Assembly: GCF_009758015.1 (NCBI RefSeq)
Contig: NZ_WSEL01000009.1
Coordinates: forward strand, 1,785,501 to 1,849,500
Source: Ramlibacter pinisoli
Lineage (GTDB): Bacteria; Pseudomonadota; Gammaproteobacteria; Burkholderiales; Burkholderiaceae_C
Direction: 5' to 3'
DNA: 64,000 bases
Part shown: positions 6,786 through 23,767 of the stretch, piece after piece
Layout: every line of letters begins with the position of its first letter
Numbering within the stretch: position 1 is the first letter of the stretch
Position numbers and translations under genes: made by a program
The notes under the pieces: model-generated
The model's database searches: none
The model's input: the letters and a program-made list of their open reading frames with translations, nothing else
What the model was told of the DNA's origin: nothing

Positions 6786-8183
6786 ATGCAGCAATACCTC
6801 GACACCAGCAACTCCCCCCCGGTGACCCGCCTGCTGGCCCGGATGATCGTCAACACCCGCTACGAGGATCTTTCGCCGGTTACCGTCAAGGCAGCCGAAC
6901 TGGCCTTGTACGACTGGGTTGGGTGCGCGATGGTCAGCGGGCAGACCGAGAAGGCAGCCAAGATGGCGCGTGTCGCAGCTGCGGAAGGCGCCCAGGGAGG
7001 TGCACTGGTGTTCGCAGACGGCAAGCGGACCAGCCCGCACTGGGCCGCCTTTGCCAACGGCGCCTCGCATGCCGTCGAGCTCGACGACGTCCATATGGCC
7101 TCCATCATTCACGGAGGCATCGTGATCTGTCCGACCGCGCTGTCGGTCGCCGAGCAGTCCAGGGCCAGCGGCAAGAAGCTGATTGAAGGGCTGGTGGTCG
7201 GCTTTGACGTGGCCTATCGGATCGGCGAAGCGATCGCCAAGACACACTACCTGATGTGGCACAGCACGGGGACCGTGGCAACGTTCGGCGCAGCTGCTGC
7301 CGCGGCCAAGATCATGGGCCTCGATGAAGACCAGACCTGCTGGGCCCTGGGCAACGCCGCCTCCCAGGCAGCGGGCATCTGGGAATATCTGAAGTTTGGC
7401 GATGACACCAAGCTTCTCCATAGCGGCAAGGCAGCAATGAACGGCCTGCTGGCTGCTTCGCTCGCCAGAGAAGGCTTCACGGGGTCGGACACGGGCATCG
7501 AGGGCGAGCGCGGATTCCTGGCGACGATGTCGGGCTCCAGCAACCCGGCCGCGGTGAACTGGGACGCCATGACCCGCGACCTCGGCAAGAAATTCAAGGT
7601 CGATGAGAACGGGTACAAGTTGCACGCGTGCTGTCGCCACGGCCACGTCAGCATCGACAACGCACTGCGTCTCATCCAGCAGCACGGGATTCGGGCGGAC
7701 CAGGTCAAGGCCGTGCGCGTGCAGATGAACAGGAATTCGTGCGACACGCTCGGGGACAGCGATCCGGTTTCGCCCTACAAGGCCAAATTCAGCCTCGCAT
7801 TCTTCATGGCAACTTGCTTCCTGCATCGCAAGGTGGGCATGGAAGCTTTCACGGACGACCGTCTGCGGGACCCTGCGATGCGTGCCTTCATGAAGAAGGT
7901 GAGTTACCTCGAGAACCCCGAGTACACCCGGAACTATCCGCGACTGTGGACCGCCAGCCTGGAGGTGGAGTTGCAGGACGGGCAGGTGCTGTCCACCCAA
8001 GGTGACCTGCCCTATGGCGACCCGGCCACCGAGCTTCCGATCCCCCTGTTCGAGCAGAAGGCGCTCGACATGATGGGATCGGTCGTCGGTGCAGACCGGG
8101 CACGCGGCCTTCTGGCCGCCATGCAGCAGTTGCCCGAGGTGGGCGACGTCTCCCGGATTTTCGACGGCTATCCGTACCGCTGA
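6786..8183 (+). CDS. MmgE/PrpD family protein
   Basis: A 465-residue member of the MmgE/PrpD family, which includes 2-methylcitrate dehydratase, cis-aconitate decarboxylase and iminodisuccinate epimerase. The family hallmarks are visible: an N-terminal helical domain with ALYDWVGCAMVSG, then SHAVELDDVH and HIGGIV-like IIHGGIVICPTALSVAE, and a KLHACCRHGH stretch near residue 280. I start at ATG 6786, because upstream codons run through the promoter region. It is first in an operon with aconitase-like large and small subunits (10 and 12 base gaps) and two Bug receptors. Dehydration, isomerisation or decarboxylation of a tricarboxylate-like substrate is likely. The exact reaction is not determinable here. 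Confidence 0.85.
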   Translation: MQQYLDTSNSPPVTRLLARMIVNTRYEDLSPVTVKAAELALYDWVGCAMVSGQTEKAAKMARVAAAEGAQGGALVFADGKRTSPHWAAFANGASHAVELDDVHMASIIHGGIVICPTALSVAEQSRASGKKLIEGLVVGFDVAYRIGEAIAKTHYLMWHSTGTVATFGAAAAAAKIMGLDEDQTCWALGNAASQAAGIWEYLKFGDDTKLLHSGKAAMNGLLAASLAREGFTGSDTGIEGERGFLATMSGSSNPAAVNWDAMTRDLGKKFKVDENGYKLHACCRHGHVSIDNALRLIQQHGIRADQVKAVRVQMNRNSCDTLGDSDPVSPYKAKFSLAFFMATCFLHRKVGMEAFTDDRLRDPAMRAFMKKVSYLENPEYTRNYPRLWTASLEVELQDGQVLSTQGDLPYGDPATELPIPLFEQKALDMMGSVVGADRARGLLAAMQQLPEVGDVSRIFDGYPYR

Positions 8184-8193
8184 GAGGCCGCAC

Positions 8194-9447
8194 ATGGGAA
8201 TGACGATCACCGAAAAGATCATCGCCAGCCACGCGGATCTGCCCCGCGTGCGGCCGGGCGACTTCGTCGAAGCCAGGGTGGACCAGACCTGGTCAGACGA
8301 CCTGGGGTCACCGCTCACGATGGGCCTGCTGGAGGAACACGGGCTGAAGGTCTGGGACCCGAGTCGGATGTTCGTGACCTCGATGGTCAATTCGCCGGCA
8401 CAGAGCATCCAGACGGCGACCGTCCTGAAGAGCATCCGGCGTCTCACGGGCAAGCTGGAAATCCCGCACTACGAGATGGGCAAGGCGGCGATCCACAACG
8501 CGCTGGGAATCGAGATCGGCAAGACGCTGCCGGGCGAACTGATCGCCGGAGGCAACTCACATGCCTGCATGGCAGGCGGCCTGGGCTGCTTTGCCACCGG
8601 GATGGGATCGACCGACATTGCGGCCATCCTTGCTACCGGGCGGACCTGGCTGGAGGTGCCGCGGACGATCCGCTTCCGATTCGTGGGAAAGCTGCGTCCC
8701 TGGGTCACAGGCAAGGACCTGATGCTGCACGTGATCGGCAGGATCGGCTTCTCCGGCGCAGACAACGCGGCGATGGAATTCTGCGGCGAGCCGATCGACA
8801 CGCTGGAGGTCGAGGAGCGCCTGTCCATGACCAACATGGCCATCGAGGCGGGCGCCCAGAACGCGATCATCGAGCCCGATGCAAAGACACTGGCCTATGT
8901 CGACAAGATTGCCCAAAGGGCCTTCACGCCGGTCTACGGCGACCGAGATGCGGAAATATCCGAAGAGCACGTGATCGACGTCTCCGAACTCGAGCCGGTG
9001 ATCGCCCTGCCCTCGTTGCCCAGCAACACGCGGCCGCTGACGGCCGTGAAGGGCATTCGCTTCGACCAGGTCTACATCGGCTCCTGCACCAACGGCTGGA
9101 TGACCGACATGCGTGTCGCCGCCTCGATCCTCAAGGGTCGCAAGGTGAGCGACGCCCTGCGCGTGATCATCATTCCGAGTACCGCGCAGATCCACCGCCA
9201 GTGTGTCGAGGAAGGATTGGCCCAAGTCTTCCTGGAGGCCGGGTGTGCCTTCTCCATGCCCACCTGCGGCCCCTGCATCGGGGCCCACATGGGCATCCTG
9301 GCGGAGGGCGAACGTTGCCTGTCCACCAGCAACCGCAACTTCCCGGGTCGCCAGGGCCACGTGAAGAGCGAAACGTATCTGTGCAACCCAGCCGTCGCTG
9401 CCGCCACTGCCGTGAAGGGCGAGCTGTGCGGCCCCGACGACCTCTGA
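8194..9447 (+). CDS. Aconitase-superfamily large subunit (LeuC/HacA-like), atypical active site
   Basis: A 417-residue protein with the layout of the archaeal-type isopropylmalate/homoaconitate dehydratase large subunit. Iron-sulfur ligands are present: C298 in GSCTNG and C358/C361 in CGPCIG, with the TSNRNFPGRQG signature at 378-388. Two usually invariant active-site motifs are changed. The Asp-His pair normally found after the FDPxxx(V)xxx segment is Val65-Asn66 (TSMVNSPAQ), and the Asp-Ser-His triad is Asn121-Ser-His. The cluster is therefore probably kept, but the acid-base chemistry differs. It pairs with the LeuD-like subunit 12 bases downstream. A divergent hydro-lyase or isomerase is likely; leucine biosynthesis is unlikely in this context. 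Confidence 0.8.
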   Translation: MGMTITEKIIASHADLPRVRPGDFVEARVDQTWSDDLGSPLTMGLLEEHGLKVWDPSRMFVTSMVNSPAQSIQTATVLKSIRRLTGKLEIPHYEMGKAAIHNALGIEIGKTLPGELIAGGNSHACMAGGLGCFATGMGSTDIAAILATGRTWLEVPRTIRFRFVGKLRPWVTGKDLMLHVIGRIGFSGADNAAMEFCGEPIDTLEVEERLSMTNMAIEAGAQNAIIEPDAKTLAYVDKIAQRAFTPVYGDRDAEISEEHVIDVSELEPVIALPSLPSNTRPLTAVKGIRFDQVYIGSCTNGWMTDMRVAASILKGRKVSDALRVIIIPSTAQIHRQCVEEGLAQVFLEAGCAFSMPTCGPCIGAHMGILAEGERCLSTSNRNFPGRQGHVKSETYLCNPAVAAATAVKGELCGPDDL

Positions 9448-18695: not shown

Positions 18696-19106
18696 ATGCA
18701 GATCGAGACCTACGTGTTCTTCAACGGCACCTGCGAGGAGGCACTGGCCTTCTACGCGCGCGCCCTCGGCGGCAAGACCGTGGCACTGATGCGCTACGAA
18801 GGCTCGCCGATGGACACCCCGGAACTGCCCGCGAACTGGAAACAGAAGGTGATGCACTCCACCTTCGAGTGCGAAGGCGCGCGCTTCATGGCCAGCGACA
18901 CCCCGCCCGGCCAGCACCCGGGCTACAGCGGCTTCTCCCTGTCGCTCTATGTTCCCGGCGATGCCGACAAGGGCCGGCGTGCATTCGATGCGCTGGCCGA
19001 AGGCGGCAAGGTCACGATGCCGTACGGCCCGCCGTTCTGGGGTGGCCATTTCGGCATGCTGACCGACCGCTTCGGCATCCCCTGGATGGTCTCGACCGAG
19101 CACTGA
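18696..19106 (+). CDS. VOC-family (PhnB-like) protein
   Basis: A 136-residue vicinal-oxygen-chelate fold protein, PhnB-like: opening IETYVFFNGTCEEALAFYARALGG, SDTPPG, then a closing GGHFGMLTDRFGIPWMVSTEH. Family members include uncharacterised bleomycin-resistance-like and methyltransferase-like proteins; no specific substrate can be given. Divergent from serS across a 63-base gap with an AAGGAG ribosome site. It is not obviously linked to the YcaO locus that begins 153 bases downstream. Confidence 0.85.
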   Translation: MQIETYVFFNGTCEEALAFYARALGGKTVALMRYEGSPMDTPELPANWKQKVMHSTFECEGARFMASDTPPGQHPGYSGFSLSLYVPGDADKGRRAFDALAEGGKVTMPYGPPFWGGHFGMLTDRFGIPWMVSTEH

Positions 19107-19259: not shown

Positions 19260-21233
19260 ATGCAGGAGACCATCGCATACCCCACCACCCAGGGCCAGTG
19301 GCACATCCGGGGCGGCACCCTGCGCTGCCGCCAACCGGGCCGGGCGGTCACCGTCCAGGCGCCCGGGCCGCTGCTGCGGGCAGTGCAGGCGCTGTGCGAT
19401 GGCCATCTCGGCTGGCGGGCGGTGGCCGCGGGCCTGGCAGTCCGCTGGCCTGCCGGCGCGGTCGTCCGCTTCCTGACCAGCCTCACGCAGCACGGCCTGC
19501 TGCTCGACCGGCAAGACGCCGCCCTGTTGCAGGTGCCGGCCCACCGCACCTTCGGCGATCGCCCGCTGCCGGCGCCGCAGCTGCGTCTTCTTCTGGAGCG
19601 GACGTTGGCAGGGGTTGGCGGGCGCAGCCTGCGCTGGCAGGTCGATGTGCTGCGCTGCCTGCCCGATCCCGACGGTCAGGGCCTGCCCGTGGAGCTGTAC
19701 GAAGTCACCCAGTCGCCGGCAGGCGGCGTGGCCATGCACCGCCTATCGCGCGGCGCGGGTGTCTCCTGGCACCTGCTGCCCGATCCCCGGCTGCTGCAGT
19801 TCGCCTCCGCGGTGGTGCTGCCGCGCGCCGCCCGGCCGTCGACCGGCGAGGTCCAGGGGCGCGGCATCCAGAGCTTGTGCGCGGCCCAGCGCTGCGCGTT
19901 GGAACTGGGTCTTGGCCACGCCTTGCACCAAGTCCTCGCGACGGCCCCGGCGTCCCGCCGCGGCGCACCGGCTGTCCGCCCGGTGGCGGCGCTTGTCTTG
20001 GGCGTTCCATGCTCACCGGCCGAGGCCGCGGTGCAGCAGGTAGACAACTGGTTGCACCTCGGCGCCGCGCCCGCCCGGCTCCATGCCGATGCGGCTCCCT
20101 GCGGCTTCTCCTTCAGCGCCGGGCCGGTGCGCGAGGGCCGGCTCACGCTGTTCACGGTCGGCCGCTCCAGCGATCCGCGCAGCGCGCTGCGCAAGGCGGA
20201 GGCCGAGGCCTGGGAAAGGCTCGGCTGGGCGCGGCTGGGCCCAACGGTGGAGGGCACGCTGCACGACTTCGTGGCCGCACGCGATCCGCGAACGGTGGTG
20301 GCATATGCCGACTGGCAGCACCGCCGCCCGGGCTTTCCCTTCATGCCCTTCGATCCGCGCCGGCTCGCGCTCTGGTGCCGGGGCCAGGACGTCGCCACCG
20401 GGGCGGCAGTCCTGCTGCCGGCCGAGTGCGTACACGCCCTGGACGCCCTGCCGGCCCACTGGCGTCGCCGGTCCTGCACGACGACCAGCACCTCGGGCGT
20501 CGCCGCCGGTCCCGACAGCGCAACGGCCCTGGCCTGGGCGCTGCTCGAACTGGTCGAACGCGATGCCTTCCTGCGCGCCTGGCTGGCCGGCAAGTCCGCG
20601 CCGGTGGTGTCGCCGGCGACGCTGCCGGGCGAGGCCCGGCGGCGCCTGCGCGCGCTGCAGGCGGCCGGCCACCGTGTGGCCGTGCTGCGACTGCCGGCAC
20701 CGGCCCCGGTGTACGGTGTGTTCGTGCAGGCGCTGCAGCGGCCGTTCACCGCCGTCACGGCGGGCGCGCATTTCGATCCCGTGCAGGCCCTGCTCAAGGC
20801 GTTCGACGAAGCCGAGGGCCGGGCCGCCCACGCCGCCGCCCATCCCCTGCCCCCGCTGGCCAGCCCACGCGCGGTGCGGTCGATCGGCGATCTCCAGCGG
20901 CACTGGCAGTCACCGGGGCAAGTCCGGCAGGCCGACTTCCTGGCCGCGGGGCCGCCCACGGCCGCCTTCGCCCCGCCCGACACGTGCCACGACGGTGCAA
21001 CGCTGATCGCCGCGCTGGCGCAGGCCGGTTGCCCGGCACTGGCGTTCGACCTCACGCCGGCCGGGGCCGCCATCGAGCAGGGGCGCACGCCGCTACGCGT
21101 GGTGCGCGCCGTCGTGCCCGGCCTGCTGCCGCTCTGGTTCGGCCACGGGCTCGAACCGGCCGGCCTGCCGGCCTTCAGTGCGGCGGCCGGCAGCCGCGCC
21201 GGCCGCCCCGTCCCCATCCACCCGTTCGCCTGA
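19260..21233 (+). CDS. YcaO-type cyclodehydratase-like RiPP enzyme with N-terminal RRE-like domain
   Basis: A 657-residue multidomain protein. Residues 1-90 resemble a PqqD/RRE-like winged helix for leader-peptide binding (LLRAVQALCDGHLGWRAVAAGL then VVRFLTSLTQHGLL). Residues 100-235 are a linking domain; RGIQSLCAAQRCALELGLGHAL weakly recalls half of a SagB-type flavin dehydrogenase. The YcaO domain covers about 245-657: ALRKAEAEAWER (309-320), STSGVAAG then ALLELVERDAFLRAWL (410-442) and FDEAEGRAAH (515-524), all in the ATP/Mg-binding regions. The C-terminus RPVPIHPFA resembles the Pro-rich PxPxP tail of azoline-forming YcaO enzymes. It probably activates backbone amides to form thiazoline/oxazoline in the peptide encoded 10 bases downstream. 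No separate ThiF-like partner is present. Confidence 0.83.
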   Translation: MQETIAYPTTQGQWHIRGGTLRCRQPGRAVTVQAPGPLLRAVQALCDGHLGWRAVAAGLAVRWPAGAVVRFLTSLTQHGLLLDRQDAALLQVPAHRTFGDRPLPAPQLRLLLERTLAGVGGRSLRWQVDVLRCLPDPDGQGLPVELYEVTQSPAGGVAMHRLSRGAGVSWHLLPDPRLLQFASAVVLPRAARPSTGEVQGRGIQSLCAAQRCALELGLGHALHQVLATAPASRRGAPAVRPVAALVLGVPCSPAEAAVQQVDNWLHLGAAPARLHADAAPCGFSFSAGPVREGRLTLFTVGRSSDPRSALRKAEAEAWERLGWARLGPTVEGTLHDFVAARDPRTVVAYADWQHRRPGFPFMPFDPRRLALWCRGQDVATGAAVLLPAECVHALDALPAHWRRRSCTTTSTSGVAAGPDSATALAWALLELVERDAFLRAWLAGKSAPVVSPATLPGEARRRLRALQAAGHRVAVLRLPAPAPVYGVFVQALQRPFTAVTAGAHFDPVQALLKAFDEAEGRAAHAAAHPLPPLASPRAVRSIGDLQRHWQSPGQVRQADFLAAGPPTAAFAPPDTCHDGATLIAALAQAGCPALAFDLTPAGAAIEQGRTPLRVVRAVVPGLLPLWFGHGLEPAGLPAFSAAAGSRAGRPVPIHPFA

Positions 21234-21243
21234 GGAGAAGACC

Positions 21244-21441
21244 ATGCCCGCACCCGCCACGTCCCGCGCCCGCCGCACCGGCCCCCGCTCGTTCCGCTGG
21301 AGCGTGTCTTCGCTCCACGTCGAACCGCTGCGTCCCGCGTCCTTCGCCGGCGTGCTCGACGGCTGCACCTCCTGCGACGGCTGCCCGGCGCCCATGGTGG
21401 CCCCGGCGCGCCGTCGGCCGGCGCGCCGCGGCAAGCGCTGA
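21244..21441 (+). CDS. Putative azol(in)e RiPP precursor peptide (TOMM-like)
   Basis: A 65-residue peptide with a strong GAGGAGA site and only 10 bases after the YcaO gene. The basic N-terminal segment with SFRWSVSSLHVEPL could be a leader. A small DGCTSCDGCPAP segment (39-50) holds three Cys, one Thr and one Ser spaced by Asp/Gly, resembling a heterocyclisable core. An Arg/Pro-rich tail (RRRPARRGKR) follows. Position between YcaO and ATP-grasp genes, composition and size support a precursor. No homologue was recognised, so the assignment is inference. The leader cleavage site is unclear, although DG at 39-40 is a candidate. Confidence 0.65.
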   Translation: MPAPATSRARRTGPRSFRWSVSSLHVEPLRPASFAGVLDGCTSCDGCPAPMVAPARRRPARRGKR

Positions 21442-21459
21442 ATCTGCCGCCGCGCGCCG

Positions 21460-22455
21460 ATGCTGCTCGCCTCCTACCTCAGCCATGCTGCAGCCGTGCA
21501 GCGCGCCGCGGCCCGCCTGGGCATCGACGCCTGGACCCGCATGGCCGACTTCTCGCTGCACCTGCGGCGCGAGGGCACCAGCCTGCGCTGGCGTCCCAGC
21601 TTCATCACAACCACCGGCAGCGGCCAGGCCTACACCGACCAGCTCACCCCCGCTTCCACCGGCTTTGCCGGCTGGTTCCCCTACCCGCTGCGGCGCTGGC
21701 CGCTGGCCACCGACAAGGCCCGCTTCAAGCACGAAGCCCAGGCGCTCGGGCTGCGCACGCCCGCCGCCTGCCACGACGCCGGGCAGATCGGCGGACCCTA
21801 CCTCGCCAAGGCCATCCACTCATCCTTCGGCCAGGGCCTGCGCGGGCCCTGGCCCGCGCACGACCCGGCCGATCCCGACCAGCAGCTGCGGGCCGACGAG
21901 TACTACGAGAACTTCCTGCTCGGCGTGAGTGCCAAGGCGTGGTGCTGGGCCGGCCGCTGCCTGGCGCTGGAGCTGGTGCGTCCGGCCATCGTCACGGGCG
22001 ACGGCACGGCCACCTTGCGGCAGCTGGTGCAGGCGCTGCCGCATGCGAAGGGCCGCCACGACTGGTCGCTGGTGGCCCACCTGGCGCTCTTCGCGGGCCT
22101 CGACCACGTCGACGCCATCGTGCCGGCGCAACGCGAGGTGGCGGTCGAATACCGCTACGGGTCGGTCTACCGCGATCCGCTGGAGCCCAGCATCAACGCG
22201 CTCGACGAAGCCCGGGCCGACGGCCTGGCAGGCCAGTTCCACGATGCGGCGCGCCGGCTGCAGGCGCATGTGCCCGCATTCGACGACCCGGCACCCACGC
22301 TGTACACCCTCGACGCCGTCGTCGATGCCCAGGGGCAGGCCTGGTTCCTCGAGATGAATTGCAACCCCACCGTGCATCCGCACGCCTACGAAGCCCTGCT
22401 GGCCACGGTGTTCGGCGCGCAGCCGGCACCCGCCGCGGTGCTTGCAGTGGCCTGA
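21460..22455 (+). CDS. ATP-grasp ligase-like protein of the YcaO locus
   Basis: A 331-residue protein. The ATP-grasp fold is supported by TDKARFKHEAQALGLRTP (84-101), an ATP-binding lysine strand YLAKAIHSSFGQGLRG (114-129) and the Mg-binding TLDAVVDAQGQAWFLEMNCNP (283-303; Asp285, Glu298, Asn300). Such enzymes ligate a carboxylate to an amine or thiol via acyl phosphate. It starts 18 bases after the precursor-like peptide and belongs to the same forward operon. It may modify the peptide (amide or ester formation) or make a cofactor or cap. The RiPP role is inferred from position. An aminoligase role for a free metabolite is an alternative. Confidence 0.75.
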   Translation: MLLASYLSHAAAVQRAAARLGIDAWTRMADFSLHLRREGTSLRWRPSFITTTGSGQAYTDQLTPASTGFAGWFPYPLRRWPLATDKARFKHEAQALGLRTPAACHDAGQIGGPYLAKAIHSSFGQGLRGPWPAHDPADPDQQLRADEYYENFLLGVSAKAWCWAGRCLALELVRPAIVTGDGTATLRQLVQALPHAKGRHDWSLVAHLALFAGLDHVDAIVPAQREVAVEYRYGSVYRDPLEPSINALDEARADGLAGQFHDAARRLQAHVPAFDDPAPTLYTLDAVVDAQGQAWFLEMNCNPTVHPHAYEALLATVFGAQPAPAAVLAVA

Positions 22456-22594: not shown

Positions 22595-23767
22595 TTGCCC
22601 GCCATCACCAACATCGAAGACCTGCGCGTGCTCGCGAAACGGCGCGTGCCGCGCATGTTCTACGACTACGCCGACTCCGGCTCCTGGACCGAGAGCACCT
22701 ACCGCGCCAACGAGGACGACTTCAACCGCATCCTGTTCCGCCAGCGGGTGGCGGTGAACATGGAGGGCCGCAGCACCCGGACCACCATGGTCGGCCAGCC
22801 GACCAACATGCCGGTGGCCATCGCGCCGACCGGCCTCACGGGCATGCAGCACGCCGACGGCGAGATCCTGGCGGCGCGCGCGGCCAAGGCCTTCGGCATC
22901 CCGTTCACGCTCTCGACCATGAGCATCTGCTCGATCGAGGACGTGGCCAAGGGCACCGACAACCACCCGTTCTGGTTCCAGCTGTACGTGATGCGCGACC
23001 GCGGCTTCATCGAGCGCCTGATCGACCGCGCCAAGGCGGCCAACTGTTCGGCCCTGGTGGTCACGCTGGACCTGCAGATCCTCGGCCAGCGCCACAAGGA
23101 CATCAAGAACGGCCTGTCGGCGCCGCCCAAGCTCACGGTCGCCAACATGCTGAACCTCATGACCAAGCCCCAGTGGTGCCTGGGCATGCTGGGCACGCCG
23201 CGGCGCCAGTTCGGCAACATCGTCGGCCACGTCAAGGGCGTCGAGAACATGGGCTCGCTGTCGGAGTGGACCGCCAAGCAGTTCGACCCCCGGCTGTCGT
23301 GGGCCGACGTCGAATGGATCAAGCAGCGCTGGGGCGGCAAGCTCATCCTCAAGGGCATCCAGGACGTCGAGGACGCCCGCCTGGCGGTCGATTCGGGCGC
23401 CGACGCCCTGATCGTGTCCAACCACGGCGGACGCCAGCTCGATGGCGCGCCCTCCTCCATCTCGGCCCTGCCCGAGATCGTCGAGGCCGTGGGGCGCCGC
23501 ATCGAGGTGCACATGGACGGCGGCATCCGCTCCGGCCAGCACGTGCTCAAGGCGGTGGCGCTGGGCGCCCGGGGTACCTACATCGGCCGCGCCATGCTCT
23601 ACGGGCTGGGCGCCATGGGACAGGCCGGGGTGGAGAAGGCGCTGGAGATCATCCGCAACGAGCTCGACCTGTCGATGGCCTTCTGCGGCCGCACCGACAT
23701 CACCCAGGTCGACAAGTCGATCCTGCTGCCCGGCACCTACCCGACCGGGCGCGCCGCCGGCTACTGA
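22595..23767 (+). CDS. FMN-dependent alpha-hydroxy-acid oxidase/dehydrogenase (LldD-like)
   Basis: A 390-residue FMN TIM-barrel enzyme that oxidises 2-hydroxy acids (lactate-like) to 2-keto acids. Motifs: PVAIAPTGLTGMQHADGEILAARAA, the flavin segment LVVTLDLQILGQRHKDIKNG, catalytic SNHGGRQLDGAPSS and GGIRSGQHVLKAVALGARGTYIGRAMLYG. The TTG at 22595 is chosen because GAGGAGA lies at the right distance; an earlier TTG at 22520 has no such site. It is 139 bases past the ATP-grasp gene, so it is probably not part of that locus. Confidence 0.88.
   Translation: MPAITNIEDLRVLAKRRVPRMFYDYADSGSWTESTYRANEDDFNRILFRQRVAVNMEGRSTRTTMVGQPTNMPVAIAPTGLTGMQHADGEILAARAAKAFGIPFTLSTMSICSIEDVAKGTDNHPFWFQLYVMRDRGFIERLIDRAKAANCSALVVTLDLQILGQRHKDIKNGLSAPPKLTVANMLNLMTKPQWCLGMLGTPRRQFGNIVGHVKGVENMGSLSEWTAKQFDPRLSWADVEWIKQRWGGKLILKGIQDVEDARLAVDSGADALIVSNHGGRQLDGAPSSISALPEIVEAVGRRIEVHMDGGIRSGQHVLKAVALGARGTYIGRAMLYGLGAMGQAGVEKALEIIRNELDLSMAFCGRTDITQVDKSILLPGTYPTGRAAGY

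Follow-up and report, generated by a model that had tools for sequence, protein, structure and literature searches.

The sequence considered here is a 64,000-nucleotide stretch of the Ramlibacter pinisoli genome (contig NZ_WSEL01000009.1, positions 1,785,501 to 1,849,500 of the forward strand), hereafter called the window. Three closely spaced genes on its forward strand encode a YcaO-family protein, a small peptide, and an ATP-grasp ligase, and very probably constitute a cassette for a ribosomally synthesized and posttranslationally modified peptide (RiPP). With somewhat less assurance, we propose that this compact cassette gives rise to an azoline-bearing product whose precursor is also modified by the ATP-grasp enzyme.

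The cassette spans ~3.2 kb and consists of two enzyme genes and one peptide gene. The gene for the YcaO-family protein (657 aa; 19260..21233, + strand) is followed by the putative precursor peptide gene (65 aa; 21244..21441, + strand) and then by the ATP-grasp ligase gene (331 aa; 21460..22455, + strand), with intergenic gaps of 10 and 18 bases. These open reading frames (ORFs) are found exactly where a sequence-only reading of the window had placed them, and the three-gene arrangement is real. The same reading had assigned the genes to a RiPP pathway, an assignment strengthened by the conservation of peptide, YcaO, and ATP-grasp together across genomes.

Conservation of the precursor peptide

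The 65-residue ORF adjoining the YcaO gene is conserved and has the character of a precursor gene. A profile hidden Markov model (HMM) was built from the peptides of four other loci (L020, L034, L035, and L036), with the window peptide excluded, and was compared with every stop-to-stop ORF of 30 codons or more in the window (885 in total). The single significant match was the frame of the 65-residue ORF (E 2.4e-7), the next best having E 0.61. A database search with five peptides yielded 29 proteins at E ≤0.01, the window's included, and in other genomes of the genus, the small ORFs immediately following the YcaO gene were read as well. The sequence-only reading had allowed that the peptide might not be conserved with the YcaO and ATP-grasp genes; as far as tested, it is.

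The alignment of 32 distinct precursors (A4, in which two pairs are near-identical) is divided into a leader-like part, a core-like part, and a variable tail, and has the consensus FQWGISS ... RDGSxxDCSxISPLPxPxRK. F17, W19, and C47 are invariant in all 32 rows, and residue 39 is acidic in every one (D in 26, E in 6). G40 is kept in 31 rows and D45 in 30, although the placement of gaps around residues 45-47 is uncertain for the window row. In the window peptide, the leader motif FRWSVSS occupies residues 17-23 (21292..21312, + strand), and the predicted core, DGCTSCDGCPAP, occupies residues 39-50 (21358..21393, + strand). This core contains DGCTSCDGC and carries three Cys residues, a number found in only two rows (the window's among them); 17 rows have one Cys and 13 have two.

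Precursors were recognized by reading the small ORFs adjoining YcaO genes; a search for CxxC-rich ORFs near the relatives' genes returned only noise. The annotated starts of relatives had suggested a shared upstream ATGTACTGC element, but a search of ten loci did not find it upstream of YcaO.

Association of the YcaO family with ATP-grasp ligases

Searches recovered YcaO family members from 7 of the 60 genomes screened in the genus (E ≤1e-20), from 8 of 399 in the taxonomic family (E ≤1e-40), and from 3 of 399 in the order, the last including the window genome and G601. The G601 match is an ordinary E1-YcaO with a Cys-rich peptide and was left out of the family count. The sample used for co-occurrence comprises 14 distinct genomes, and all 14 have a match to the ATP-grasp, which in 13 lies within ~1.6 kb of the YcaO gene. 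For comparison, any match to the ATP-grasp was found in 12 of 299 genomes of the taxonomic family, a count that includes the partial matches in G032 (E 5.0e-4) and G065 (E 7.1e-4).

An adjacent precursor was recognized in 11 of the 14 genomes. Five of these precursors are of a type that we call A (G000, G097, G311, G353, and G341), and six are of type B, with a RLPHKVGLPLSSGGCGDAIER-like core (G099, G223, G310, G405, G402, and G828). In G096, a precursor-like N-terminus is joined to a weak Hint domain, and no precursor was recognized in G132 and G302. The ATP-grasps of type A loci fall into two clades. A single origin of the pairing is therefore not supported, and we infer that the association of ATP-grasp with YcaO arose, or was exchanged, more than once.

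Alignment (A1), a model, and structural alignment indicate that the window's ATP-grasp has a complete fold, with the metal-site residues D285, E298, and N300 (TLDAVVD ... FLEMNCNP) intact; the structural alignment lists many ATP-grasps, and families outside that list may match as well. A near relative, P0002, is 88% identical to it. We think it probable that this enzyme makes a second modification on the same peptide, with chemistry deduced from the gene sequences, and we offer only tentatively that this modification is a side-chain link at D/E39 in particular. It is possible, if unlikely, that the ATP-grasp, within an azoline RiPP pathway, attaches an amino acid or another amine to the peptide terminus in the manner of cyanophycin synthetase and PGM1, with no side-chain link.

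The peptide could also be a small intracellular metal-binding or regulatory protein that is matured by both enzymes, rather than the precursor of a natural product. Such a role would suit the conservation of Cys and Asp in the core, as well as the fact that no protease or transporter was recognized near the cassette when the window ORFs were read. However, the leader-like and core-like division of the peptide, its variable tail, and its location beside a RiPP-type YcaO chain make this interpretation improbable.

Class of the YcaO protein

The first protein of the cassette matches the YcaO model PF02624 at residues 301-622 (20160..21125, + strand) with 150.3 bits against a cut-off of 25.7, which upholds the family assignment originally made from the letters, and it is the single match to the YcaO protein in the window genome. 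Among its listed relatives that bear an organism name, seven are Ramlibacter and one is Achromobacter. Residues E316, E319, R320, E430, E433, and R434, which are invariant in the family alignment (A2), are present in the window protein, as are the nearly invariant Q607 and R609. The C-terminal half of the family profile matches the solved YcaO enzymes MJ1094 (E 2.3e-13), TruD (6e-12), LynD, and MusD. The PxPxP-like C-terminus noted in the sequence-only reading is not characteristic of the family, whose members mostly end in HPFT or HPFP instead.

Three YcaO subtype models matched the protein, the best being TIGR03604 (SagD azoline type) with 123.9 bits; the model for McrA-type thioamidation gave 32.1 bits. 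TfuA was found in none of five genomes, the window's included. Thus, the possibility that the protein belongs to a TfuA-linked subgroup, which had been raised at the outset, is not borne out as tested. None of the three cassette proteins matches a model for a ThiF/E1 or ocin-ThiF partner at E ≤1, and no genome-wide search for such a partner was made.

Azoline formation by the cassette is likely. The YcaO domain might instead make a thioamide or an amidine, and among solved structures it is indeed MJ1094 that gives the best profile E-value. However, TruD follows it closely, the SagD model scores far above the McrA-thioamidation model, TfuA is absent from the five genomes, and relatives fuse a domain of the thiazoline-oxidase type to YcaO, so that we give this alternative little weight.

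A dehydrogenase fused to YcaO

Azole-forming clusters usually encode a dehydrogenase, and the sequence-only reading had considered it simply lacking here. This is not the case. In most of the listed YcaO relatives, a single chain carries, in addition to the YcaO domain, a conserved N-terminal region and a SagB-type domain. PF00881 (nitroreductase) and PF02624 occur together in 27 of the 38 YcaO homologs among the matches listed, several of which are partial and one of which is the window's own protein, and family columns 116-320 match the thiazoline oxidase BmdC (E 5.6e-6). Because 27 of 38 relatives carry this SagB/BmdC-type domain, the "missing" dehydrogenase corresponds to the fused domain, which is degenerate in the window copy. 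The window protein (19260..21233, + strand) can accordingly be divided into an N-terminal region resembling a RiPP recognition element (RRE; approximately residues 1-88, 19260..19523, + strand, a weak assignment), a remnant of the SagB/nitroreductase domain (19545..20010, + strand, ends approximate), and the YcaO domain.

PF00881 finds no match in the window protein; the intact relative P0017 reaches 43.3 bits, above the cut-off of 23.5. Four intact proteins (P0017, P0020, P0032, and P0044) match TIGR03605 (SagB dehydrogenase) at 30.1-40.3 bits, for which the cut-off is 78.4, and P0018 and P0037 have no match to this model. With a profile of the family's SagB region, the window protein scores 51.8 bits, the L015 protein 99, type B proteins 146-163, and the intact closest relatives (P0017-P0048) 294-338; the scores of the intact A2 rows are high by construction because those rows built the profile. 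The window copy has neither the RTVASGG-like nor the KYGNR-like stretch, and ~100 residues are lost. Similar degeneration is observed in P0018, P0021, and P0037, in which the YcaO part is conserved. The KYGNR-like motif is kept in the SagB region of 11 of the 14 genomes and is not found in G000, G132, and G302 (G097's own YcaO protein is P0046 in alignment A2).

On a 41-row tree, seven rows bear the label "no SagB domain": the window protein (P0016), P0018, P0021, P0037, L038, and the short proteins of L022 and L032. Explaining the label takes five changes on the tree, at least four of them forced by well-supported branches, and its clustering is weak (a count as low arose in 41 of 500 shuffles). 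P0016 groups as sister to P0018 (93/96), the partner of P0037 is the intact P0023 (100/96), P0021 is not firmly placed, and L038 is a long branch whose position is unsure. We infer that these changes are losses. Although the ~100 lost residues and absent motifs could mean that the window copy is decaying and the cassette is on its way out, this is quite unlikely, because all three frames are open, the conserved YcaO residues are kept, similar losses in P0018, P0021, and P0037 accompany a conserved YcaO part, and the ATP-grasp has a close relative in P0002.

Proposed biosynthetic route

In the route that we favor, the RRE-like N-terminal region would bind the FxWxhSS leader, and the YcaO domain, with ATP, would convert core Cys residues (perhaps also Ser or Thr) in DGCTSCDGC into azolines by cyclodehydration. 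With the fused dehydrogenase degenerate in the window, the product there should keep its thiazolines and would presumably carry azolines rather than azoles, and intact relatives could oxidize their thiazolines to azoles. The ATP-grasp would then act on the same precursor, activating a carboxylate, most likely that of the invariant Asp/Glu39, for attachment to a nucleophile; alternatively, the C-terminus of the peptide would be the site of ligation. Removal of the leader and export of the product would be left to host genes elsewhere. In its broadest form, which we advance as a speculative model, a single RRE-SagB-YcaO chain makes azol(in)es and the ATP-grasp links an invariant acidic core residue. 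The cassettes might then represent an azol(in)e/graspetide hybrid RiPP type of Burkholderiales, in which repeated oxidase loss has turned azole makers into azoline makers.

Several observations weigh against this route. No heterocycle or other product has so far been observed. With TIGR03604, the protein stays below the curated cut-off of 219.25. Leader recognition by the YcaO N-terminus, which had been suggested from the sequence, finds faint support. Approximately the first 90 residues are conserved in the family, and their profile aligns with TruD 36-106 at 4.1 bits, which is not significant by itself, and with the N-terminus of an E1-YcaO of another family at 7.3 bits (hhalign probability 14.8; E 2.7e-4 when it is the only target and 0.97 when all ORFs are searched); neither similarity reaches significance when the search is wide. 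The proposal of a ring at D/E39 is a guess prompted by conservation, and the acid could instead function in recognition. The graspetide leader motifs Phhx(1,2)h and GG each occur in 0 of 32 precursor rows (first 40 and 45 residues). In G311, a distance of ~100 kb separates the YcaO gene from the only strong ATP-grasp match, which is next to an RHS gene, and ATP-grasps of the same family also occur in places without YcaO. The lack of a recognizable protease or transporter gene nearby belongs here as well.

If the proposed route is true, a cassette of ~3.2 kb, with two enzymes and one peptide, would install two distinct ATP-driven modifications. Natural pairs that differ in having a working oxidase would then allow azoline and azole products to be compared within one family. 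The precursor family, with its 32 aligned sequences, and the fused enzyme could be used to find further clusters.

Variant loci

Type B precursors, whose core lies at or near the C-terminus, adjoin the same YcaO family (L018 12300-12488, L021 4875-5099, L037 8973-9164, L047 7391-7591, L048 10595-10771, and L051 8030-8224). A gene resembling 2-oxoglutarate (2OG)-Fe(II) oxygenases is present at five of these six loci (L018 by Pfam; L037, L047, L048, and L051 by reading) and was not recognized in L021. Among the five type A loci, three (G097, G341, and G353) have a radical SAM/SPASM enzyme, for which there is no match at E ≤1e-10 in the window genome or G311.

At L015, a 254-aa protein adjoining YcaO (7654-8418) combines a precursor-like N-terminus, the sequence SDSSCCC, and a Hint (intein-like) domain that falls below Pfam cut-offs. 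It is conceivable that a RiPP core is freed here by a self-cleaving domain. A second ATP-grasp, of the R2K clade (PF18299; 9441-10193), is located directly beside the first. L022 (9111-12630, tested) and L032 (8782-12540, by reading) each have in a row an ATP-grasp, a short YcaO without the N-terminal parts, and a pyridoxal phosphate-dependent enzyme of Cys/Met metabolism, and no precursor was recognized in these rows. ATP-grasps of the same family also reside next to ABC exporters in L014 (1433-3646, tested) and L031 (6764-18954, by reading), and next to giant RTX/cadherin-like proteins in L018 (70-8973, tested) and L031 (by reading); L014 and L031 have no YcaO match. L052 (9679-12533) encodes an ordinary E1-YcaO fusion and a small peptide full of CxxC repeats, which is likely an azol(in)e precursor of another kind.

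Genomic setting

A flavin mononucleotide (FMN)-dependent dehydrogenase gene downstream of the cassette (22595-23767; 280 bits to the mycofactocin MftD model, below cut-off) was considered as a cassette partner and rejected. The gene is present in all 21 genomes searched within the genus, and at L073, in a genome without the cassette (G301), it neighbors serS across a short gap. The cassette and a VOC gene (18696-19106) occupy this serS/FMN-dehydrogenase gap, which is empty in that one cassette-less genome. The 1.5-kb flanks of the remaining 18 relatives' loci showed no serS; thus, gene order there varies. A plasmid collection gave no match to the window YcaO or to P0053.

Six of the 14 genomes have giant RHS/YD-repeat frames (~3,000-6,200 aa, with LysM in some) no more than ~5 kb away from the YcaO or ATP-grasp gene, and one is also beside the lone ATP-grasp of G311 (frames at L015 11743-17994, L021 7559-13819, L035 11488-18999, L047 25-2760, L048 2-7153, L051 12541-18999, and L065 3-7601, and also L032 3-8789). 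RHS matches are present in at least 13 of the 14 genomes among the matches listed, and the closeness to the cassette looks far from chance, judged without formal statistics. No giant RHS gene is present in the part of the window that was read, and the window genome's best RHS match is on another contig.

Comparison with known systems

The cassette shares with thiazole/oxazole-modified microcins and linear azol(in)e-containing peptides (SagBCD and McbBCD type) a SagD-type YcaO, a core containing Cys, Ser, and Thr, and, in relatives, a SagB-type dehydrogenase. It differs in that its three proteins have no ThiF/E1 domain, an ATP-grasp is added, no protease or transporter is recognized nearby, and the dehydrogenase is fused to YcaO and degenerate in the window. 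TruD, LynD, and MusD, E1-YcaO fused cyclodehydratases of the cyanobactin type, likewise have an N-terminal region fused to YcaO, and the YcaO halves match by profile. In the cassette family, however, the middle of the chain is SagB-type rather than E1-like, and the N-terminal similarity to TruD is slight. BmdC matches the SagB-type columns but is named in the PDB as a nonribosomal peptide synthetase oxidase, whereas here the domain belongs to a YcaO chain.

With graspetides, the cassette has in common an ATP-grasp ligase fold and its metal-site residues, but the family's precursors have none of the published-type leader motifs. A 2022 survey (PMC8939145) does include some predicted graspetide precursors without Phhx(1,2)h or GG motifs. 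It also describes loci of "branch 6" ATP-grasps that contain SagB nitroreductases, SPASM enzymes, and YcaO/TfuA, and states that YcaO with ATP-grasp had not been reported before; the cassette family differs from those YcaO/TfuA loci in having no TfuA in the five genomes. The view of the sequence-only reading that no described class has such a composition therefore holds only in part. No description of the RRE-SagB-YcaO fusion or of the cassette family's precursors was found in titles and abstracts of mostly open literature, which is not proof of novelty.

There are other partial parallels. A thiovarsolin-type TfuA-YcaO cluster (PMC6511847) also combines YcaO and ATP-grasp (VarL, according to PMC8120280) but is TfuA-dependent and actinobacterial, and deletion of varL had no effect on production there. 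Fusions of a different makeup include tfuA-ycaO, with separate nitroreductases (PMC8120280), and an MNIO-nitroreductase fusion (PMC12636437). The arrangement in R. pinisoli is related to known peptide natural-product pathways but is built differently.

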